Of a DNA stretch of 64,000 bases, positions 52,571-63,825 are shown one piece after another. Both the position numbers and the translations under genes were made by a program. Source of the stretch: a bacterium (GTDB taxonomy: Bacteria; Elusimicrobiota; Elusimicrobia; Elusimicrobiales; UBA9959); contig JAJZPL010000009.1 in the NCBI GenBank assembly GCA_021811185.1, forward strand, positions 36,481 to 100,480, in the 5' to 3' direction. The notes under the pieces were generated by a model. It was not told where the DNA came from. It made no database searches and saw only the letters and a program-made list of their open reading frames with translations. The stretch's first letter is position 1. Each line of letters begins with the position of its first letter.

Positions 52571-53626
52571 TTACCTGCCGCCGGCGGCGGATAGGGCCAG
52601 GTCGGCGCGGTACTGGGCCACCGAACGGCGGGAAAGGTCAACGCCGTGCCGCGCTTTTAGTTCCCCGCGCAGTTTCTCGTCGCTCAGCGCGGGGTTCTCC
52701 ACGGCCAGCGCGTAAAGCCGCTCCAGGTTCACTTCTTTGGAACTCGGCAGCAGCACGGTCATGGGGGCTTCCATCCCCCAGGGCATCTGGATGGATTTAT
52801 TGGAGACCAGCCGGTTCAGCACGCTGGTATGCACTTCCAGGTTCTTGGCCAGCGTCTTCTGCGAGAGCGGGCGGCGGCGGCCAGGCTCGCCGGTGGCGAG
52901 GTAGTCGGCCTGCACGCTGATCAGGATTTCCAGCGCGCGGTACAGCGTGGTCTTGCGCTTGTCGGCGAACTCCAGGCGCTTGATCACCTTCTCGATGCCG
53001 GTCTTCTCGGAGTCCGGCAGACCGCGCAGCAGCTCCGCCAGCTTGTCGCCGTCCACCTTGTAGCGGCCTTTCCAGATCTCGCGGTGGAAGAAGGCCAGCA
53101 CCGGCGCGCCTTCGACCATCTCGATGCCGGCCACAGCGCTGAAAACTTTCGCCGCCGGGGCGGGGGCCGCCCCTTCGAACTCGGCCTGGATGAAAGCCCG
53201 GTTCACAAAATCGCGCAGGCGTTCCGCGTCCTGCACCGTAATGTCGCATTCCTCCGCCCGCTCCACGTCGCTCATTACGGCGTCTTTAAGGAAGCAGGCC
53301 TCGAACTTCTCCTGGCCTATGCCCTGTATCATACCCACCAGGTCGCCTTTGCCGTCCGCCAGTTCCGGCAGGTCCCCGCCCGAAAGTTTAAGCCCGTAGC
53401 CGGCGTACTTGCGCGCGGCGTAACGGGCCGAAGGGAATTCCGCCAGGTTCATGGCGCCGGAGCTCTTAAGCAGCTGGAAGAACCGGTTCCCCTCCACCGC
53501 GGCCAGTTCCTTCTCGAACTCCTCTTCGGACATGGCCGCCATATGCGCCAGCTTCAGCGCGCCCCTCAGCGCGGCCGAGGTTTTTGTGCCTGTGGACAGT
53601 ATCAGTTTGTGACCGGTAAATTTCAT
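52571..53626 (-). CDS. divergent sigma-54 (RpoN)-like factor, about 351 aa
   Basis: N-terminus HKLILSTGTKTSAALRGALKLAHMAAMSEEEFEKEL resembles RpoN region I; KTTLYRALEILISVQADYLATGEPGRRRPLSQKTLAKNLEVHTSVLNRLVSNKSIQMPWG resembles the core/HTH region; SRRSVAQYRADLAL resembles the RpoN box (ARRTVAKYRE). Confidence 0.75.
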   Translation of the reverse strand: MKFTGHKLILSTGTKTSAALRGALKLAHMAAMSEEEFEKELAAVEGNRFFQLLKSSGAMNLAEFPSARYAARKYAGYGLKLSGGDLPELADGKGDLVGMIQGIGQEKFEACFLKDAVMSDVERAEECDITVQDAERLRDFVNRAFIQAEFEGAAPAPAAKVFSAVAGIEMVEGAPVLAFFHREIWKGRYKVDGDKLAELLRGLPDSEKTGIEKVIKRLEFADKRKTTLYRALEILISVQADYLATGEPGRRRPLSQKTLAKNLEVHTSVLNRLVSNKSIQMPWGMEAPMTVLLPSSKEVNLERLYALAVENPALSDEKLRGELKARHGVDLSRRSVAQYRADLALSAAGGR

Positions 53627-53675
53627 ATGGATTCCCTTTGACCGCCCGGTTATTATAACCATTACTAACAATAAA

Positions 53676-53692
53676 GAGCAATTTTAATGCCA
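53676..53692 (-). promoter_or_regulatory. putative sigma-54 (-24/-12) promoter of the RpoN-like gene
   Basis: TGGCAT-TAAAA-TTGC-TC, GG-N10-GC spacing, about 50 bp upstream of the ATG. Confidence 0.7.
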
Positions 53693-53770
53693 ATAATCCG
53701 CGCCGGCCCCTCTTCCATATGCGGCACTGCGGCCCCTATTTTCTGTATAATTGGGGCAGGGGACAAATCA

Positions 53771-53782
53771 TTTCATTTGAAA
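53771..53782. promoter_or_regulatory. putative enhancer dyad (UAS-like)
   Basis: TTTCA-TT-TGAAA, about 80 bp upstream of the -24 element. Confidence 0.45.
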
Positions 53783-53809
53783 ATATTCTTCTCGCCCGAA
53801 AAGGAACCC

Positions 53810-55150
53810 ATGGAAAAGCTCAATATCCTGGTGCTCGAAGACGACAAGCTGGCGCAGAAAGTGATGGCGTCGCATCTTTCCGCCCATAACGTGGACATAG
53901 CCGGCGATCTCAAGACCGCGCTCAAGAAAATAGAGACGGGAAAATACGACATCGGTTTTTTCGACCTGATGCTGGGCCCGGACGACGACTACTCCGGCCT
54001 CAAGGCCATCCAGCCGGCCGTGGCCAAGGGCATCCACGCCGTGGTAGTCTCCAGCTCGGACTCGGACGCGACCATAGACCGCGCCTACGAGCTGGGCGCG
54101 GCGGACTTCTACGCCAAGGGCAACGAAGAGTCGAACGTCGGGGATATCCTGCGCAAGTTCGTCCAGAACCGCAAGGCCGCCGGCGCCGCCGACATTTTCA
54201 CCTCGGCCTTCATCACCGAGGACGCCGAAACCCGCGCCGCCGCGACGGAGGCGCTAAAGTACGCGCCCACCGAGCTGCCTATCCTGATCCTGGGCCCGTC
54301 GGGCACGGGCAAAACCTCGCTGGCCAAGGTACTGCACGAGCATTCCGGCCGCGAGGGCGCTTTCGTCTCCATCAACTGCTCGGCGTACACCGAGGACCTG
54401 CTGGAGGCCGAGCTGTTCGGCTACAAGAAAGGCGCTTTCACCGGCGCCGGCGACCACCGCAAGGGCCGCCTGCTGGAGGCGCATAAAGGCACGCTGTTCC
54501 TGGACGAGATCGGCACCATGAGCCTGAACATGCAGATGAAGCTGCTGAAATCCATAGAGGAGCGCTCGTTCTACCCGCTGGGCTCGGAGAAGCCCGAGCA
54601 TTCCGAGTTCCGCATCATCAGCGCCACGCTGGAAGACCCGCAGGCGCTGATAGCCCAGGGCAAGATGCGCTTCGACCTGTTCCAGCGCGTGCACGGCTTC
54701 ACCATCAAGCTCAAGCCGCTCTCGCACCGCAAGGCGGACATCTTCCCGCTGATCCAGCATTTCACCAAGGGCGGCAAGCGCCTCTCGTTCACGGCCGAGG
54801 CCAGGGAATTCATGGAGAATTACGCCTGGCCCGGCAACGTGCGCGAGCTCAAGAAGTTCGTGGACCTGCTCTCCAGCGGCGCCGGCGGCCGCGTGGACGC
54901 CGAAGCGGTGAAGAAGCACCTGAAAGGGCAGGAAAGCCCGCGCGCCGAGGCCGGCGACGGGAACATTTACGCGTACGCCCTGCAGCACGGCCTGGAAGCC
55001 GCGCTGGACAGGACCGCCGCAGAGATCATCATGCGCAACCTGGCGGAGAACAAAGGCAAGAAGACCAAGACCATGGCGGACCTGAAAATTTCCACCAGGC
55101 TGCTTTACGCCACGCTCAAGAAGAGCGGGTTCGAGATGGAGGAAAAATGA
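53810..55150 (+). CDS. sigma-54-dependent response regulator (REC-AAA+-HTH)
   Basis: REC ([13 protein letters not shown]), Walker [24 protein letters not shown] (GAFTGA), Walker [10 protein letters not shown]-terminal helical DNA-binding region. Confidence 0.93.
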
Positions 55151-55329
55151 CCGCTCCCGACGCTACCAAGCTCCTGCACGACCTTAAATCCAAATGCGCC
55201 AGCCTCAAGAGCGCGGCCGAGCTTTACAAGGACTGCTCCCCCGCCGAGAAAAAAGAAATGCTGGCCCTGATGACCGCCGCGGCGGACGAGATAGCCGGCA
55301 CGGTTTCCGCGCTCGCCAAGGCTTCTTAA
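55147..55329 (+). CDS. 60-aa stand-alone DHp/HisKA-like helical hairpin protein
   Basis: LLHDLKSKCASLKSAAELYK...EKKEMLALMTAAADEIAGTVSALAKA resembles a histidine-kinase H-box hairpin; ATGA overlap with the REC-AAA gene. Confidence 0.6.
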   Translation: MTAPDATKLLHDLKSKCASLKSAAELYKDCSPAEKKEMLALMTAAADEIAGTVSALAKAS

Positions 55330-55451
55330 CCATCAGCCGCGCCCGGGAAACCCCTGCCGCGCCGACTTACCCCCCGTTAAACCGCTTAGAAATTTTGGAG
55401 CGGGCCGCCCTACCCCTGCTTAACTGGTACAGCCCGCTCACGCACGCTATA

Positions 55452-55468
55452 GAGCATTTTTTATGCCA
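55452..55468 (-). promoter_or_regulatory. second -24/-12-like element
   Basis: TGGCAT-AAAAA-ATGC-TC with GG-N10-GC spacing, between convergent operons. Confidence 0.4.
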
Positions 55469-55508
55469 ATCCCGGCAAGGCGCGCCTGGGTCTTGATGGT
55501 AAACGGCG

Positions 55509-57056
55509 TTAAGACAGCGCCACTAAGTGGTCGAACTGCGAGTGGAACTCTTCGTCCCCATGCATGATAACGATAAGCGCGCTGTTTTTAGAGCGCTCAA
55601 AAATATGCCGCATGATCCCGCTCTTACTCTCCGCGTCCACATTCGCGAGCGGTTCGTCGAATAAGTACAACCCGGCCTTCTTCATAAGCCCCATCACCAC
55701 CTCAACCTTCTTCTTTTGCCCGGCAGAAAGCTCCTCGGGATTCTTTTCAAGACTTGCTGCCAGGGAGAAATCCTCCACCAATCTGTGCAGATAAACCTTT
55801 TGCTCCTGGTCCAGCCCGTCATACCCGACATTGTCCTTAACTGAACCGGGAACGAAAGTATGCGGCGCTATGCAGGCGCTGGTCTGCGCTATCCCGAACG
55901 TTTCCGCCCTCCCGTTTTGCGGCGACAGAAAGCCGGACAGGATATTGGCGACCGTGGATTTGCCGGAACCGTTCTTGCCGCTAAGCAGCAGTTTCTCGCC
56001 TTTTGACACCCGGAAACTAAGGTCCGAGAACACTTTTTTATCGCCATAGCTGAACCCGACGCCCTCAAGCTTTATAGCGCCGTCAACCGCAAGGGCAGCG
56101 GCGTCCGCTCCGGCTTCGGCGCCGAACTCGGTCAACCTCTGCAATGCGATCGAATTTTTCGACAGCTCCGGTATTTTCTGCACAAGCGTCCTCATATTCC
56201 CCACTGCCAGCCAGAAAGCGTTCATAAAAGCCATGAACCCGCCGAAGCTCATCTCGCCTTTCAGGATCGCGTAACCGCAGGCCATCATTACCAGCATTTC
56301 CCCGTAGGACATGAAAATAGTGGCGAACGTGTTGTGTTTCGCGCTGTTTTTTATGCGCCCGCTGAGGCTCGCTATATATTTATCGAACCTCCCGTTTATT
56401 TGCGCCAGCGCGGCGGCCTGCAGCCCGAAAATATTCACGGTACGGTACGATTCCGCGGCGACATTAAGCACTCCGCGCAATTCACCTTCGCCTTCTTTCT
56501 CATCCCTGGAGTGCTTTTTTATTTCCGACCGGTACCTGTTGGAAATTATTATCAAGAATGGCACTGTCAACGCCAGGGCAAGCGTAGCCTTCAAGGAGAG
56601 GAAGATAATTACGCCTAACGCCACCGCGAACGAAACAGCGGCGGAACATACCGAGAAGGAAAGATCTATTGCCGCCGAGGATGCCGACAAAGGTTCGTCG
56701 TAAATCCTGGAAGTGTAATACCCCGTGGTATTTTTCACCACCTGGATGTAAGGCAGCCGGTAATAACTGCCAAGCATGCTGCCGATCAGGCGTTTAAGCA
56801 CCTTATTCTTCAGGCCTTGAACGAACAGCGCGTTCCACAGGGAGAAAAGCCTGAACGCCGTAGCCAGGATCATGAAGGCGACAGTTACGCCCATGAAGAG
56901 CCGGAAATCTTTTTTTATAACCCCCTCGTCAAAGATATATTTCAGCAGGAGCGGGTTAAGCAAAGTCATGACCGCGTCCATGCAGATAGCGCTCGCCAGT
57001 GCCAGCGCGAACGGTTTTGTATATGGCCGGACAATACGCCGCAAATTTTTCAGCAT
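55509..57056 (-). CDS. ABC transporter, fused TMD-NBD (lanthipeptide exporter)
   Basis: LLLSGKNGSGKSTVANIL, EELSAGQKKKVEVVMGLMKKAGLYLFDEPLANVD; 11 nt downstream of the LanKC stop. Confidence 0.88.
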   Translation of the reverse strand: MLKNLRRIVRPYTKPFALALASAICMDAVMTLLNPLLLKYIFDEGVIKKDFRLFMGVTVAFMILATAFRLFSLWNALFVQGLKNKVLKRLIGSMLGSYYRLPYIQVVKNTTGYYTSRIYDEPLSASSAAIDLSFSVCSAAVSFAVALGVIIFLSLKATLALALTVPFLIIISNRYRSEIKKHSRDEKEGEGELRGVLNVAAESYRTVNIFGLQAAALAQINGRFDKYIASLSGRIKNSAKHNTFATIFMSYGEMLVMMACGYAILKGEMSFGGFMAFMNAFWLAVGNMRTLVQKIPELSKNSIALQRLTEFGAEAGADAAALAVDGAIKLEGVGFSYGDKKVFSDLSFRVSKGEKLLLSGKNGSGKSTVANILSGFLSPQNGRAETFGIAQTSACIAPHTFVPGSVKDNVGYDGLDQEQKVYLHRLVEDFSLAASLEKNPEELSAGQKKKVEVVMGLMKKAGLYLFDEPLANVDAESKSGIMRHIFERSKNSALIVIMHGDEEFHSQFDHLVALS

Positions 57057-57067
57057 AGAAGTTTTCC

Positions 57068-59731
57068 TTAGAACAATTCGTCCAGCATGAAATCCGCGGC
57101 TCCGCCGGACTCCAGCCGGTGGAAGAACGACGCTATCCCCGCTGAACCGGAGGCGTAGTCGCAACTGAGGCGCAGAAGCCCGTTGCCGGGGAAAGCCAGC
57201 CCTCTTTCAACTTTGACTCCGAATTTTTCTATCCCCGCCGCCACTTTGCGCGCGGCCTCGATATACTTCTTTTCCCCGGTGAACCTGTACGCGTCCAGCA
57301 GGAACTCGCCTATCCCCGCCAAGCCGTTGCTCCTGCCCGGGTAAACCGTATAGATCCTGTCGCAGGCTATGTAGATCTTTTCCACCAGGTCCGAATATTC
57401 TTTTTTTCCGGTCAGTTTCCAAAGCCTGAGACAGGCCATGCCGATACCGGCGCTGCCGGATTCCAGGTAGAAATAGATGGGACCGTCCGGGGAGGTGTTT
57501 GCCGGCCAGGCCAGGCCGCCGTCCGGAGTGGAAAACTCATGTTTCAGATCGAACCGGAGCGCTTTTTCCGCCGCCTCCCCGAACTCCGCGCTGCCCGCCG
57601 CCTTGCTTAGGCAGGCAAGGAACACGGAAATACCGGAAGCCCCGAAAGCGAAACCTACGGGGGTGGATTTGCCGGATATCTTCCAGCACATCCCTCCGTT
57701 TTCAGCCGAGGCCGAGGCGATAATTTTTTTACCCGCTTCAACGGCCATATTAAGATATTTTGCATCCCCCGACTCCAGCCAGAAACGCAGGTTGGTCATT
57801 CCCCAGCCGGCGGTACCGTTATACATGTCGGGAGCGGAGTAAAGCAGGGGGTGTCCGGTAGTTTTTTCCAACACTTCAGCCGCTTCCTTTTTTAAACCGA
57901 GATCAAGCAGCGCCCACGCTATACCGCTCATGCCCACATGCAGACCTGGGGGATAATTTTCAGCCTGTATATCTTTATTTAAAACCCAGTCCAGCATTTG
58001 CCTGGAGATCTTTTCCGGCGCCGCGTTTTTAAGGCCTTTTAAAACCCCGGCGGCGCCATACGCCATACTAAGCGGATTAGTCTCGAACACCTCGGGCAAG
58101 GCCGGCCAAAGCCTGTCTTTCCGGGAATAATCCGCTACCGACTCCAGATGGGAGACTATCTGCGCGGCAAGCCCGCCGTAATAGCCGGCCCCTTTGGGCT
58201 CCACCCTCAGCGGCATGATCTCCCGCCCTTCACGCATAGCCTTTACAGCCGTTTCAAGCGTGCGCACCGCTTCGGCCGGCTTTATCCTTGCCGCCGGATC
58301 CGGATGCATAAGGCCTAAAATAACGGGACGGAGTTCAGGCGGAAATCCAAATTCGGTAACCAGGCAGTCCAGCCATTTTCCGGATATCCCCGGATTAAGT
58401 CCGGCCATCTGGTTTACCCGGACCAGGGCATAAAGCATGTTCGCCCCGAAAGCGTAATAGTCGTCCTCGAACGACAGTTCCTTGCCGCGGGGCCTGGCCG
58501 GGTCGGAAAAACCGGGCGTAAAGAACCAGGCCGGGCTCGCGGCCCCGCTTTCCCGCGCGCCCTCGAAGTCGATGATCTTGACATCCAGCGAGTCGGGGTT
58601 CAGCATCACGTTATTAGCGGAGAAATCACCGAAGATTATCCCGCGCCCGTGCAATTTTTCGATTATGCCGGCGAGTTTTCTGAAAATATCGATATACTTC
58701 AGGAAAAATTCCCTGGCTTCGGTATAGGTAAACCTGGCGTGGAGCACTATATCGTTCCTGACCGCCCATTTATCCAGCGAGATATATTTATCCAGATATT
58801 CCTGGACCAGGAAAGTGTGCTCCCATTCGCGGAAAAACTCCACGGGGCCGGGCGCGATACCGAGATCCTTTATTTTTTCCAAAACCCGGTGTTCCTTGCC
58901 GAGAAGGCTGACCATATCATGCTCCGGCGCGGACTCATTTATCCAGGGGCGCGCCTCTTTAACTACCACTTTTTGGCCGCTCTGCCCGTCAACGGCAAGA
59001 TAAACGCCGCCTGAATTAGAAAAACCAAGGGAGCTCTCCACCTTGTACCGCCCATTGTTTAAACCTTTCCCTCCGCTTTTTTCGGATTTGAAAAGATCCT
59101 CCACCCATGCGGGCAGGCTGAAATACGGGTGCCTGACATCCGGGACCTTTTCTCCGGAAGGTGAAACCAGCACCGGCGTTTTCTGGCCGTCCGTTTCAAG
59201 CACGGTGTTCAGTTTAATACCGCCATAGCGGTAGTACACGACTTTATATTCTTTGTACCTTTTGTCCGACAATATATACGGGCCGCTGAACTCGGAGGTA
59301 GCTTTCCCCAAAGCCTCCAGCAGCTCCAGGAACTCCTTGTTGTCCGCGGGGTAGACGGTTATAAATTTACCGGCTCCGCCTCTTCCCCATGACTTGGAGT
59401 TAGTCATAGTGAGAACGGTCTTATCCAGCAGGAATTTAAAGGATACGCCGCGCGGCACAAGCACATCCGCTGCTCGCTTCAATATCTCTTCGGCGTCTTT
59501 GCGCCGGGCCGACAGGTGTATCTTCCAGCCCTGCAACTGGAGCCTTGCCGCGTCAGGTTTGCAGTGAAGCCAGACCCCCTTCCGGATTACGTTCCAGCCG
59601 CTGCCCAGCCTGGCTTCGGTCGGCGCGTGAAAGTCCGCTTTGGAGTACGGGTAACGGTCCATGGACTCATAATAGCGAGGGTCCGCCGCGATGTAAGATT
59701 GAAACGCGCGATTGTCTTTTTTCATATTCAT
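57068..59731 (-). CDS. class III lanthionine synthetase (LanKC): lyase + Ser/Thr kinase + LanC-like cyclase
   Basis: N-terminal GWKIHLSARRKDAEEIL...NSKSWGRGGAGKFITVYP; kinase IIFGDFSANNVMLNPDSLDVKIIDFEGA; C-terminal LanC-like GxxG repeats without the Zn-ligand CxxG/CHG motifs. Confidence 0.88.
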   Translation of the reverse strand: MNMKKDNRAFQSYIAADPRYYESMDRYPYSKADFHAPTEARLGSGWNVIRKGVWLHCKPDAARLQLQGWKIHLSARRKDAEEILKRAADVLVPRGVSFKFLLDKTVLTMTNSKSWGRGGAGKFITVYPADNKEFLELLEALGKATSEFSGPYILSDKRYKEYKVVYYRYGGIKLNTVLETDGQKTPVLVSPSGEKVPDVRHPYFSLPAWVEDLFKSEKSGGKGLNNGRYKVESSLGFSNSGGVYLAVDGQSGQKVVVKEARPWINESAPEHDMVSLLGKEHRVLEKIKDLGIAPGPVEFFREWEHTFLVQEYLDKYISLDKWAVRNDIVLHARFTYTEAREFFLKYIDIFRKLAGIIEKLHGRGIIFGDFSANNVMLNPDSLDVKIIDFEGARESGAASPAWFFTPGFSDPARPRGKELSFEDDYYAFGANMLYALVRVNQMAGLNPGISGKWLDCLVTEFGFPPELRPVILGLMHPDPAARIKPAEAVRTLETAVKAMREGREIMPLRVEPKGAGYYGGLAAQIVSHLESVADYSRKDRLWPALPEVFETNPLSMAYGAAGVLKGLKNAAPEKISRQMLDWVLNKDIQAENYPPGLHVGMSGIAWALLDLGLKKEAAEVLEKTTGHPLLYSAPDMYNGTAGWGMTNLRFWLESGDAKYLNMAVEAGKKIIASASAENGGMCWKISGKSTPVGFAFGASGISVFLACLSKAAGSAEFGEAAEKALRFDLKHEFSTPDGGLAWPANTSPDGPIYFYLESGSAGIGMACLRLWKLTGKKEYSDLVEKIYIACDRIYTVYPGRSNGLAGIGEFLLDAYRFTGEKKYIEAARKVAAGIEKFGVKVERGLAFPGNGLLRLSCDYASGSAGIASFFHRLESGGAADFMLDELF

Positions 59732-59799
59732 CCCGCACTGCCCACGCCGGACCGCAGCTGCCGGGCCCCGGCAAACCCGGGGCCGGAAGGCCGAAGGAG

Positions 59800-60591
59800 T
59801 TATTTGGCTTTCGCCGCCTTCACCACATTTACGTCCCCGCCGTACATCGTGACCGACACAAGCGTGCCGTCCGTCCCCGAGAAGTCATTGCGGATCTTGC
59901 CCTTCTCCTTAGTCCTCAACTCCGTCTTAATTTTGGCGTCGGGAGGGAAAGTGAACGTAGCTGTGCCGCCATCCGATTTGACCCTGATCTCCGAAGAGGG
60001 CGTAGTCGCCCAGGCGAGGTCCAGCCCGCCGCAATCCCGCTCCACGGACGCGCCGCTCGTAAGCCCCGTCAGTTTGATCTTGCCGGCGATGCCGGAGATA
60101 GTCAACTTGGAGGGGTTTATATCGCCGCTCATGTTCCCGGCGGTCATATCCAGCGTTAAAGGCCCCGACAGACCGGCAAGGGTCCCGTCCCCGGCGATCT
60201 TTGAAATGGAGACCGGGCCGGAGATCCCGCTGACATCCAGATTGCCGGCGGCCATCGAAACCTCCAGCGCCAGCCTGGACGGCACTTTTATCAGGCAGTT
60301 TGAAATCACGCCGTCATGGTCGTTGCTCCTTTCGATCTTGAGCGTCCGCCCCGAGACCTTCGAAGTCACCTCGCAGACTCCCGCGGCTTCCAGGGGCGAA
60401 ACTTCCACGGCGCCGCCCGTTCCGCCCTCTATGCGTATATGCCCGGCACCGGAACCGAAATACACGCCCGAAAGATCGCCGGCGGGGAAGGTTCCGCCGT
60501 TGGTCACCTTCCCGTTCACCGATACCGAAACGATCAGCGCCAGCATTCCCGCCGCCAGAACTCCTCCCGCGATTTTATATTTGATTTTCAT
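59800..60591 (-). CDS. secreted DUF4097-like beta-solenoid protein in the lan operon
   Basis: Signal/TM N-terminus then repetitive VSGISGPVSISKIAGDGTLAGLSGPLTLDMTAGNM. Confidence 0.65.
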   Translation of the reverse strand: MKIKYKIAGGVLAAGMLALIVSVSVNGKVTNGGTFPAGDLSGVYFGSGAGHIRIEGGTGGAVEVSPLEAAGVCEVTSKVSGRTLKIERSNDHDGVISNCLIKVPSRLALEVSMAAGNLDVSGISGPVSISKIAGDGTLAGLSGPLTLDMTAGNMSGDINPSKLTISGIAGKIKLTGLTSGASVERDCGGLDLAWATTPSSEIRVKSDGGTATFTFPPDAKIKTELRTKEKGKIRNDFSGTDGTLVSVTMYGGDVNVVKAAKAK

Positions 60592-60719
60592 ATCATTTCC
60601 TTTGATCTTGCCCGTTCCCCGTTAAGTCCAAGCCGTCCCCGTCCGCCGCGCCGCGATCACCTGAGTATCGCCGCGGATAACTTTCCCGCATGAGCCGGGA
60701 ATCATCTTATTTTAGTTTT

Positions 60720-60827
60720 TTAATTCCCGTTAGTGTTGTTGCAGTCGTTGCTGATCGTGCTCCAGTCCTTGTTGACGGCCTCTTCCTGCGCGGTTTCCAC
60801 TTTCTGAAGGTCGAGTATAGCGTTCAT
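60720..60827 (-). CDS. class III lanthipeptide precursor, copy 2 (35 aa)
   Basis: MNAILDLQKVETAQEEAVNKDWSTISNDCNNTNGN; ILDLQ leader motif and SxxSxxC core; RBS AGGAG. Not in ORF track. Confidence 0.88.
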   Translation of the reverse strand: MNAILDLQKVETAQEEAVNKDWSTISNDCNNTNGN

Positions 60828-60838
60828 GTTATTCTCCT

Positions 60839-60946
60839 TTAATTCCCGTTAGTGTTGTTGCAGTCGTTGCTGATCGTGCTCCAGTCCTTGTTGACGGCCT
60901 CTTCCTGCGCGGTTTCCACTTTCTGAAGGTCGAGTATGTTGTTCAT
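60839..60946 (-). CDS. class III lanthipeptide precursor, copy 1 (35 aa)
   Basis: MNNILDLQKVETAQEEAVNKDWSTISNDCNNTNGN; RBS GGGAGG; tandem copy with 119-bp period. Confidence 0.9.
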   Translation of the reverse strand: MNNILDLQKVETAQEEAVNKDWSTISNDCNNTNGN

Positions 60947-60980
60947 TTTGCCTCCCTGGATTTTGCTTACACCCGCTACA

Positions 60981-60997
60981 GAGCAATTTTTATGCCA
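60981..60997 (-). promoter_or_regulatory. putative sigma-54 (-24/-12) promoter of the lanthipeptide operon
   Basis: TGGCAT-AAAAA-TTGC-TC, GG-N10-GC; predicted start about 25 nt before the precursor ATG. Confidence 0.78.
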
Positions 60998-61084
60998 GAA
61001 GCGAAAAAACAACTCCCGCGCCGTTGCCATCATTGGGAAAGCGCAATTATCCCGGCAGCGGGACAAGGTAAAAGCCTGTAAATG

Positions 61085-61118
61085 TTTTCATATGAAAATA
61101 TTTATTTTCGTATGAAAT
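61085..61118. promoter_or_regulatory. tandem enhancer dyads (UAS-like)
   Basis: TTTTCATATGAAAA at 61085-61098 and TTTTCGTATGAAAT at 61105-61118, 20 bp apart, about 90-120 bp upstream of the -24 element. Confidence 0.6.
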
Positions 61119-61146: not shown

Positions 61147-61170
61147 CGGTTTCCCCCATGGTTCCGGCCG

Positions 61171-61302
61171 TCAGCCTGCCCAGGGAGGCTCTTTGCCGGT
61201 TACTTTGAGCCAGGGGAGGTGGGCGAATTTTTCGGGGCCGTGGCCGGTGGTAATGGTCTGCATGGAAAAGCCGTTGCCGCCGGATTTTCCGTGGGTCACC
61301 AT
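61171..61302 (-). CDS. possible 43-aa small ORF
   Basis: MVTHGKSGGNGFSMQTITTGHGPEKFAHLPWLKVTGKEPPWAG, between the S41 gene and the operon terminator; no homology recognised. Confidence 0.25.
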   Translation of the reverse strand: MVTHGKSGGNGFSMQTITTGHGPEKFAHLPWLKVTGKEPPWAG

Positions 61303-61342: not shown

Positions 61343-62812
61343 TTATAGCTGCATGTCTTTTTGCATCCGACGCTTAACGATACTGTCAACAACTAGATCT
61401 TTAACACGCCCTCCGTATGGGCGCAGCAGTGTGTCGTTAAGCACTATGTCCGGAATGATCCCGTGTTTATCATCTCCGGGCAGGGGTTTCCTGGGGAAAT
61501 ACCTGCACGCAGACACAGTATAACGTATCCCGCTGTGCGGCAATGAGAACTTTAAAGCGTTGCCAAAGGCTATAGGCGGCTCACCAGTCTCATAACCCAG
61601 GATCTTCCCTATCTTGTGGTCTCGAAACGCGGCCGCGAAGGCGCTTGCCGATGAATAGGATCCATTGTCTACGACCAAATATACCCTGCCGGAGAAAAAG
61701 TCTTCCGGAACCGGACTTGCGCCTTTGTCACTGTCCGTATTAACCACCTCTCCCAGGTGCGCTTTAAGATACTTAAGTCGAGGGAACGCCCGGAGCAACT
61801 CTTTGGATATCTTGATCTTGCCGTTAAGCTGCGTGACCTTCTCCCGTGAGATATAGGAGAAAATTAAATCTCCCATGCTGGAATCCCCTCCGAGATTACC
61901 TCTGAGGTCCAGCACCAGATCGCGGATGCCTTCAGTCCTCAACCTCTTGAAAATACCGGAAATTTCTTGTTTCTGCTGCTCGGAATTATCGAACGACGCA
62001 TAACTTATCCAACCTACACCGGCTTTATGATAAACGTCCAGACTTACACCGCCACCCTGTGTGCCACTGCAAACCGAAACTGTCCCAGCCGCGTCCGCAG
62101 TATTGAATCCGACCTTTTTAATGGCCCCATCCTTTAAGCGCAATGCCGCATTGAACGATCCAAGTCCGGAGAACAGCCCGCTGAAATCTGACCAGAAAGA
62201 TTGATCGCGCGCAAATTGATAAGCCCGGAACTTAAGCGTCTCTCCCGAGATGTGCTCAAGAACCGGCCGCAGGAATTCCTTGAATGGCGTCCCGTTTATC
62301 GCGATTATCTCCGCACCACCGAATTGTCCGCCTGGATCCCGGGAAATAACAAATCTGCCGTCATTACTGGCCACCGCAAAAGGAAGGAAGCGCTTCTTTG
62401 CGTCCGTTGTATCTATGTCATACCTATAGTTTATTCTGGTATGCCCGTCGCCAATAGCCGCGGCGGAATAGGAAAGCACATAAGCGAGGTCCCGGACCGT
62501 CATACTGCCGTTCGCCGAGCTTTTATTATTAACTTCGGCAATTGTCTGACGCTTCATTTTCACATAAGCATCATGCCCTATGTTAATTTCAACATCCGGA
62601 TGCACACGCTCAAGTGTGGAAAAGAAATCGTCCACATCCCGCAGCGCCGCGCTGCGGGATACACGTTCCGGAGAGAACCGGAACCTGGCTATTATCTGGC
62701 GCAATGGCATTATCCCGGCCCGGTCTATCAAGAGTGCAGCCCCCCAAAAAAGCAAGGCGGCTGCCGCCGTCCCTATGGCGCACAACTTCAGGATTTTAAA
62801 CAACATCTTCAT
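61343..62812 (-). CDS. membrane-anchored S41-family (tail-specific) serine peptidase
   Basis: DLVLDLRGNLGGD, VYLVVDNGSYSSASAFAAAFRD. Confidence 0.85.
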   Translation of the reverse strand: MKMLFKILKLCAIGTAAAALLFWGAALLIDRAGIMPLRQIIARFRFSPERVSRSAALRDVDDFFSTLERVHPDVEINIGHDAYVKMKRQTIAEVNNKSSANGSMTVRDLAYVLSYSAAAIGDGHTRINYRYDIDTTDAKKRFLPFAVASNDGRFVISRDPGGQFGGAEIIAINGTPFKEFLRPVLEHISGETLKFRAYQFARDQSFWSDFSGLFSGLGSFNAALRLKDGAIKKVGFNTADAAGTVSVCSGTQGGGVSLDVYHKAGVGWISYASFDNSEQQKQEISGIFKRLRTEGIRDLVLDLRGNLGGDSSMGDLIFSYISREKVTQLNGKIKISKELLRAFPRLKYLKAHLGEVVNTDSDKGASPVPEDFFSGRVYLVVDNGSYSSASAFAAAFRDHKIGKILGYETGEPPIAFGNALKFSLPHSGIRYTVSACRYFPRKPLPGDDKHGIIPDIVLNDTLLRPYGGRVKDLVVDSIVKRRMQKDMQL

Positions 62813-63825
62813 ACTTTAGCGCTTGAAACCCCGATAAGATCATTAAATTCCCTGCGGCCCTCATGAAAACGGCGCAAGCCTCCGGACAGGCCGATAAAAA
62901 CAAAATAGGCTCCAAGAATAACACGATAACCGCCTGAAAAAAAGTATGAAGGGGACTGCGCCAGGAGAACCAGATCGCCCCAGATACGTTCGATCCTGAT
63001 AAATACGAACCAGAGAAAGTAAGCAGAAAACAACATAAAAGCCAGCAGATACGCATAATGCACAGCGCGCACCCAGGGATTGTGCTTCAGCTCAGAATAG
63101 GTGTCTTTATAAAGCCAGTATCCGTCCGTTCTGAAAAATGGGTTCATATTAAAAAGCATTATCGCTATTATCCAATGCACGGTCTCAGCGGCCGAGGCGT
63201 TCCCGGTCAAAGAGGAGAACAGCAAAAGCCCCAGGATTAAAACAGACTGCAGAATGAAGCCGCCGCAATCTATCATGATCTTAGCTTTCAGACCGAGTTT
63301 ATCTATGCCGGAAACATTTGTGTAAAATGCCGGATAAATAAGGTAGACGGAAAAGCCTATCGGCCTCAGCCCTATCCCTGCAGCCGCAGCGGCGAAAGAA
63401 TGCCCGAGTTCATGCACCAGGCTGCCTGCCATAGCCAGAAAGAACACCGTAAGCCCGTTCGCCGCGCCCGAAAGAGAAGTCGGCAAGGCTTTTGCCGGTC
63501 CGACGACCGTGAGCCATATGCCCCATGATATCCCAAGCATCGCGGGCCAAACAAAATAAATTGAGGTGCGGCCAAGCCTGGCGGCGTCGATGCCGATCGA
63601 ACTCAGCGCTTTCTCCTGCAGCTGAGCCGGGATCAGGCTTATCTTCGGGGAGAAGATCATTCCGAGAACGCCCTTCCAGGTCCGCCCGGTCTTTTCCTGC
63701 AAAGCCCCGATATCCAAAAGCTTTCCGAATATTTTTTCGGGATCCGCCAGGCCGAGGCCCGCCAAGCGATCCATATCCCGTCTAGCCTGATAGACACATA
63801 TTTGGAAAGCTAATTCTGTTGACAC
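62809..63825 (-). CDS. M50-like membrane metallopeptidase family protein
   Basis: SLVHELGHSFAAAAAGI (HExxH), NMNPFFRTDGYWLYKD, multiple TM; GTG start; ATGA overlap with the S41 gene. Confidence 0.8.
   Translation of the reverse strand: MSTELAFQICVYQARRDMDRLAGLGLADPEKIFGKLLDIGALQEKTGRTWKGVLGMIFSPKISLIPAQLQEKALSSIGIDAARLGRTSIYFVWPAMLGISWGIWLTVVGPAKALPTSLSGAANGLTVFFLAMAGSLVHELGHSFAAAAAGIGLRPIGFSVYLIYPAFYTNVSGIDKLGLKAKIMIDCGGFILQSVLILGLLLFSSLTGNASAAETVHWIIAIMLFNMNPFFRTDGYWLYKDTYSELKHNPWVRAVHYAYLLAFMLFSAYFLWFVFIRIERIWGDLVLLAQSPSYFFSGGYRVILGAYFVFIGLSGGLRRFHEGRREFNDLIGVSSAKV

Follow-up and report, generated by a model that had tools for sequence, protein, structure and literature searches.

The 64,000-nucleotide stretch analysed here (the window, G000:C36:36481-100480) belongs to a draft genome of 3.09 Mb in 79 contigs, and its right end is the end of the contig. 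It places a class III lanthipeptide operon beside genes for a short sigma-54 paralogue, a sigma-54 activator, and a 60-aa DHp-like protein, which raises the question of whether a lanthipeptide can be wired to a sigma-54 system of its own, as a first-pass annotation had claimed. We use RpoN-B for the sigma-54 paralogue of the window, RpoN-A for a second sigma-54 encoded on contig C28, and EBP for the GAFTGA response-regulator activator. G000 is the host genome of the window, G and L labels denote genomes and loci of relatives or of the host, and C labels denote contigs. The named relatives with an rpoN-B gene are metagenome-assembled genomes of Elusimicrobia, and the host genome was scanned by pattern searches.

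We consider it probable, at about 0.82, that one Elusimicrobiota family has a transcription module of its own, made up of the sigma-54 factor RpoN-B and the EBP encoded divergently from it, with lanA among its targets. What we say of regulation by this module is comparative inference: genes, motifs, conservation, and co-occurrence are read from the sequence, and binding, activation, and the input from hybrid kinases through a stand-alone DHp to the EBP are deduced from them. The EBP and DHp genes would be expressed from a sigma-70 promoter; phosphorylated EBP would bind TTTCNNNNGAAA dyads, often paired, about 70 to 120 bp upstream of TGGCAY-N4-ATTGCTCTGTA promoters and remodel RNA polymerase carrying RpoN-B. 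Its predicted targets include several classes of RiPP (ribosomally synthesized and posttranslationally modified peptide) precursor operon, represented in the host by lanA1-lanA2 and, on contig C58, by a ryptide-like operon. Exported proteins (contig C64) are also predicted targets, as is rpoN-B, the composite sigma-54/sigma-70 promoter of which would provide a basal level and positive feedback. The input would run from hybrid kinases to the stand-alone DHp and on to the EBP.

An extended promoter signature

The candidate sigma-54 elements of the window are the following.

60983-60997, minus strand: -24/-12 element of lanA1, TGGCATAAAAATTGC, then TCTGTA; conserved in the lanA promoters of G007, G026, and G047
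61086-61097, no strand assigned: dyad TTTCATATGAAA, candidate upstream activating sequence (UAS) of lanA for the EBP; aligned with the dyads of G047
61106-61117, no strand assigned: dyad TTTCGTATGAAA, second candidate lanA dyad, 20 bp from the first
53678-53692, minus strand: -24/-12 element of rpoN-B, TGGCATTAAAATTGC; conserved upstream of most rpoN-B orthologues
53771-53782, no strand assigned: dyad TTTCATTTGAAA in the rpoN-B/EBP intergenic region, candidate EBP site; conserved in relatives
55454-55468, minus strand: third -24/-12-like site, TGGCATAAAAAATGC, decayed, with no gene behind it

Both elements that had been claimed before the precursor operon and the RpoN-like gene were thus located (TGGCATAAAAATTGC and TGGCATTAAAATTGC), while the third site, which is weaker than these, had been missed; in relatives, the equivalent promoter drives an exported protein of about 190 aa. 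The bare -24/-12 consensus was discarded as evidence, since the genome-wide scan for GG-N10-GC suggested earlier gave 7 exact matches in the host genome against 8 for the reversed control, which is not above chance, and at up to one mismatch the window holds 5 matches for 8 expected. What stands out is a longer signature, in which TTTCNNNNGAAA dyads, often paired about 20 bp apart, lie upstream of TGGCAY-N4-ATTGCTCTGTA, often followed by GGGTG. The host genome has four exact sites of this extended motif (lanA, rpoN-B, contig C58, and contig C64) besides the decayed one. Exact TTTCATNTGAAA dyads are confined to three places in this genome, each beside one of these promoters.

The extended motif was found in 29 of 59 relatives, with no control match in the same 59. 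In all, relatives yielded more than 130 distinct sites, and the control next to none. It is present in 30 of the 32 family genomes with RpoN-B and in 6 of the 27 without (Fisher p 1.2e-8, kinship ignored); at a completeness of at least 90%, the counts are 25/26 and 2/14 (p 2e-7, kinship again ignored), and the exceptions are mostly incomplete drafts. A dyad lies in the 90 bp upstream of 57 of 133 unique motif sites, compared with 1.4% of random windows.

The extended -24/-12 motif has been kept at each of the clade's four lanA operons, and dyad-like blocks can be aligned across the four (imperfectly in G007) while the intervening sequence diverges. Both dyads and the motif are preserved even in G047, whose LanKC is only 47% identical and is encoded on a 5.7-kb contig lacking the module. 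Because the dyads and the extended motif are conserved at these four operons, the sigma-54/activator pair very likely controls lanA, and this part of the original proposal stands.

A clade-wide module and its candidate regulon

The claim that the pair belongs to the lanthipeptide fared differently. About 30 genomes of the genus and family have an RpoN-B orthologue (mostly 70 to 80% identity), and its gene is almost always transcribed divergently from EBP-DHp. The module mostly adjoins genes other than lan, including radical-SAM/SPASM RiPP operons in other genomes. A lanthipeptide-specific sigma-54 was ruled out, the module being clade-wide while LanKC is found in just 4 of 150 relatives. Judged by this distribution, and by the many other RiPP and exported-protein genes that stand behind its motif, the module is not the LANTHIPEPTIDE's own.

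Over the 133 unique sites, the median distance from the motif to the next plausible start codon downstream is 48 bp. A simple script assigned 54 sites to long proteins that begin like a signal peptide, 40 to short open reading frames (ORFs; 4 of them with such a beginning, the other 36 not), and 15 to rpoN-B; the sample leans to regions fetched around rpoN-B, and some of the short ORFs are probably spurious frames. The short ORFs include clear families of RiPP precursors (LanA, Cys-rich "EFEALP" leaders, and tandem repeats of MKYESPVIIESV...), and hidden Markov models confirmed the RiPP maturases encoded next to the module or downstream of motif sites. A start like MKKSNILIAVFAV...FDG is common to many of the exported proteins, with no Pfam match among those tested. 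Starts of the form MKKSNILIAVFAV...VDFDG recur under the motif at L162, L176, L174, L177, and others, some with glycine-zipper-like C termini.

A second RiPP operon of the host, on contig C58 (L014 8278-12060), codes for a 37-aa peptide, an ABC protein, a ryptide-like radical-SAM maturase (NF040899 at 208 bits, below the cut-off of 600), and a methyltransferase. On contig C64 (L013 13615-14327), the same dyads and promoter precede the gene of an exported protein of 183 aa with a C-terminal anchor. In most relatives, proteins like it are encoded convergently to DHp, where the window has only the promoter relic at 55454-55468.

Promoters between rpoN-B and EBP

Two candidate sigma-70 elements complete the divergent region.

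53652-53657, minus strand: TATAAT by sequence, candidate sigma-70 -10 of the rpoN-B promoter
53746-53751, plus strand: TATAAT in the context TTTCTGTATAAT, candidate sigma-70 -10 of the EBP-DHp operon

Before rpoN-B, the sigma-54 -12 region TTGCTC (53681-53676) could serve as a sigma-70 -35, with an 18-bp spacer to TATAAT. An exact TATAAT stands 17 to 18 bp after TTGCTC in 16 of 21 rpoN-B promoters and at none of 112 other motif sites. The rpoN-B promoter thus looks composite, with the TTGC of its -12 region able to act as a sigma-70 -35 as well, which suggests a basal supply through sigma-70 together with autoactivation by RpoN-B. Tiny Phe/Tyr/Gly-rich ORFs (about 31 to 33 aa) lie between the promoter and rpoN-B at L101:8982-9130, L105:3460-3610, L113, and L114 and are absent from the window; they are possibly a leader peptide or attenuator.

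On the other strand, the TATAAT of EBP-DHp is conserved at about -60 from the EBP start in nearly all relatives, and the operon has a conserved TGTATAAT with the dyad about 20 bp downstream. Binding of the EBP to a dyad in this position, downstream of TGTATAAT, would allow it to repress itself.

RpoN-B, RpoN-A, and alternative explanations

52571-53626, minus strand: rpoN-B, 351-aa divergent sigma-54 paralogue with a DNA-binding domain, RpoN box SRRSVAQYR, and a degenerate N-terminal region

The identification of this gene as RpoN-like was borne out. In the Pfam search proposed for it, RpoN-B matched Sigma54_DBD (PF04552) at 58 bits (cut-off 22.8), as did all 29 aligned homologues, and its RpoN box is conserved; neither Sigma54_AID nor CBD was matched by RpoN-B or by any of the 29. 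A profile of the family matched Aquifex RpoN (5ui5) with an E value of 4e-19 over positions 163 to 346, reaching the core-binding region, so that residues 163 to 220 carry the match past the DNA-binding domain. With an AlphaFold2 model (pLDDT 74), the 25 best PDB matches in Foldseek were all sigma-54 chains, the best with an E value of 1.1e-8 and spanning the whole length, at low TM-scores of about 0.4.

RpoN-A shares about 28% identity with RpoN-B, is as short, and likewise has an unrecognised N-terminal region and an RpoN box; its operon also encodes a kinase and an NtrC-like EBP of its own. Around rpoN-A in the host genome, we found no -24/-12 site. A different conserved -24/-12 sequence (TTTGGCAAAGTCGTTGCTAT) occurs a few kilobases from rpoN-A in three relatives (L118:11920, L119:12462, and L120:5222) and is perhaps the RpoN-A promoter type. 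At L102 (G054:C45), a stretch of about 8 kb with radical-SAM and ABC genes separates two copies of rpoN-B, and no EBP is encoded on that contig.

Several observations weigh against RpoN-B as the dedicated sigma factor of these promoters. A second sigma-54 is present in the same genome, the co-occurrence tests ignore phylogeny, 5 of the 14 genomes with only RpoN-A-type matches have motif sites (drafts, 74 to 94% complete), and G045, at 92% completeness, has three sites and no sigma-54 match. The unmatched Sigma54_AID and CBD domains count in the same direction, as does the medium confidence of the model from which core loading and response to the activator are inferred. RpoN-A might therefore transcribe these promoters, with RpoN-B redundant or minor, and the existence of an rpoN elsewhere, which the first-pass annotation had named as a threat to its proposal, gives this idea its footing along with the RpoN box of RpoN-A and the five genomes just mentioned. 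We nevertheless find it unlikely: 9 of the 14 RpoN-A-only genomes have no motif site, compared with 2 of 32 with RpoN-B (p 8e-5), and it is rpoN-B, not rpoN-A, that adjoins the EBP and itself carries the motif, which is absent from the surroundings of rpoN-A in the host genome. Co-occurrence thus favours RpoN-B as the cognate factor, short of proof.

A role for RpoN-B in competing for -24/-12 sites or repressing them by binding DNA, and not as a working sigma factor, would fit the strong divergence of its N-terminal regions and the recognition of its DNA-binding domain only, yet it is very improbable, given that RpoN-A is equally short and N-terminally unrecognised within an rpoN-kinase-EBP operon, that the N-terminal helices and middle domain of the RpoN-B model align with sigma-54 structures and residues 163 to 220 extend the profile match, and that conservation together with a GAFTGA activator argues for activation. 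Least likely of all, and hardly credible, is that sigma-70 transcribes lanA and the -24/-12 motif is a relic; TATAAT does occur in rpoN-B promoters, but at that offset in none of the 112 non-rpoN sites, and the lanA motif and dyads are conserved as far as the operon with the 47%-identical LanKC, where the flanks have diverged. The reading that we retain is a module of RpoN-B and its divergent EBP.

EBP, DHp, and sensor kinases

53810-55150, plus strand: EBP, REC-AAA+(GAFTGA)-Fis-type helix-turn-helix protein; PF00072, PF00158, and PF25601 (Response_reg, Sigma54_activat, and AAA lid)
55147-55329, plus strand: stand-alone DHp-like protein of 60 aa; its start overlaps the EBP stop
61168-61278, minus strand: C-terminal relic of a sensor kinase, 37 residues; 68% identity to the C terminus of the intact kinase on contig C3, E value 4e-9

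The divergent activator has the domains and all the catalytic motifs ascribed to it: an alignment of 22 orthologues supports 53810 as the conserved start and shows GAFTGA, the Walker motifs, and REC Asp52 to be invariant, with a C-terminal helix-turn-helix present. The 60-aa DHp-like gene is likewise real, with 26 orthologues in which His11-Asp12 is invariant and a model predicted as a two-helix hairpin (pLDDT 91). Profile comparison with the HisKA domain of linked kinases gave an E value of 3.5e-5, Pfam HisKA was matched weakly by 16 of the 26 members (best E value 0.004), and no significant match was found among PDB sequences.

A family of sensor kinases (HisKA, HATPase, and a conserved C-terminal region of about 100 residues) ends 77 to 191 bp before motif sites at about 10 distinct loci. 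The kinase gene is sometimes overlapped by an upstream gene for a solute-binding-like protein; SBP_bac_5 was matched by a G047 protein of the kinase neighbourhood, and the L089 protein had no Pfam match. The relic in the window lies 182 bp before the lanA -24 element, the spacing of intact kinases in relatives. G047 has the complete kinase gene at this position, and other genomes have it ahead of RiPP promoters; the host has an intact member of the family on contig C3. A further short C-terminal fragment of a kinase of this family lies at G000:C78:1677-1931, with no motif site behind it. The kinase C terminus, a putative receiver domain, has conserved receiver-like DDD, IDS-L, and TGH/K residues, its sole match in a PDB profile search being a response regulator (E value 0.0055); it had no Pfam REC match and no match in profile comparison with the REC domain of the EBP. 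The ends of kinase genes near motif promoters suggest a route from kinase to DHp to EBP to RpoN-B, and we regard such a phosphorelay as the economical reading, if less likely than not.

The lanthipeptide operon

The lan operon lies on the minus strand in the order lanA1, lanA2, exported protein, LanKC, and ABC transporter.

60839-60946, minus strand: lanA1, leader ILDLQ and core STISNDC (S-X2-S-X2-C, labionin type); NF038154 at 26 bits (cut-off 22)
60720-60827, minus strand: lanA2, precursor duplicate nearly identical in sequence to lanA1
59800-60591, minus strand: exported protein, with a weak LiaG NCBIfam match
57068-59731, minus strand: LanKC, class III lanthipeptide synthetase; NF038151 at 732 bits (cut-off 575), RamC_N, Pkinase, and LANC_like
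55509-57164, minus strand: ABC transporter of the lan operon; ABC_membrane and ABC_tran

With LanKC and LanA above the curated cut-offs, the operon described earlier is a genuine class III lanthipeptide operon, the leader and core of which fit labionin-type peptides. The gene labelled "DUF4097" is present, but the label has no support from a Pfam search, which gave no match, and only the weak LiaG match is left; related genes were found near rpoN-B in other genomes. Just upstream of the operon (61343-63825, minus strand) are genes for an S41 peptidase and an M50-like metalloprotease. The latter weakly matches the HExxH proteases of YydH/LiaK epipeptide and daptide systems, and an M50-like gene 58% identical to it lies near rpoN-B at L111.

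Comparison with known systems

RiPPs are known to be controlled mostly by cluster-specific two-component, LuxR-type, or ECF/anti-sigma systems, and lanthipeptide clusters by LuxR-type, LanRK, or ECF regulators. The operon of the window resembles class III clusters (SapB/RamCSAB and labyrinthopeptins) in its LanKC above the cut-off, ILxLQ leader, S-X2-S-X2-C core, and ABC exporter and differs from them in its sigma-54-type promoter with candidate UAS dyads. In Spo0B/ChpT-type phosphorelays, a stand-alone DHp acts between a REC-bearing kinase and a response regulator. The DHp-like hairpin found here would take a like place; unlike those proteins, it has 60 residues and no catalytic-like domain, and the kinase C terminus is weakly REC-like. 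The EBP shares its domain order, GAFTGA, REC aspartate, and dyads upstream of -24/-12 elements with NtrC-type REC-AAA+-Fis proteins, although the genes next to it encode a sigma-54 paralogue and a DHp of 60 aa instead of a full kinase.

Among the closest parallels is Cereibacter (Rhodobacter) sphaeroides, whose RpoN1 to RpoN4 work with the dedicated activators NifA, FleQ, and AprX, each studied paralogue being paired with a particular activator and its own gene set (PMC11999139). The targets there are nif, flagellar, and xrpA genes, while those predicted for RpoN-B are RiPP and exported-protein genes; also unlike that system, the activator gene points away from rpoN-B, a stand-alone DHp is coupled to it, and the rpoN-B promoter appears to be a sigma-54/sigma-70 composite. 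Sigma-54 promoters have been reported in polyketide synthase and nonribosomal peptide synthetase clusters, with the claim that sigma-54 can drive secondary-metabolite genes; that work used heterologous expression and motif prediction and involved no dedicated sigma/activator pair and no RiPPs (PMC3665592). Francke et al. proposed sigma-54 as a controller of the bacterial exterior and listed Elusimicrobium minutum as lacking it (PMC3162934). A search of the open-access literature turned up no account of RiPPs controlled by sigma-54, nor any of sigma-54 in this clade, and a second, shortened sigma-54 that switches on RiPP and exported-protein genes with its own activator would appear to be a previously undescribed form of control.

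The long promoter signature offers a practical search key for RiPP precursors and exported proteins, many without a recognised family, in an uncultured phylum, and it suggests a single activator/sigma pair for coexpression in heterologous production. As a speculative extension, the family may possess a dedicated sigma-54 system for peptide weaponry, in which a substrate-binding protein and a hybrid kinase would sense an extracellular signal (possibly the peptide product), phosphate would pass via DHp to the EBP, and RpoN-B would switch on dispersed, chemically different RiPPs and exported proteins, amplifying itself through its composite promoter. If RiPPs and exported proteins do have a sigma-54 paralogue to themselves, this would represent a new regulatory logic.

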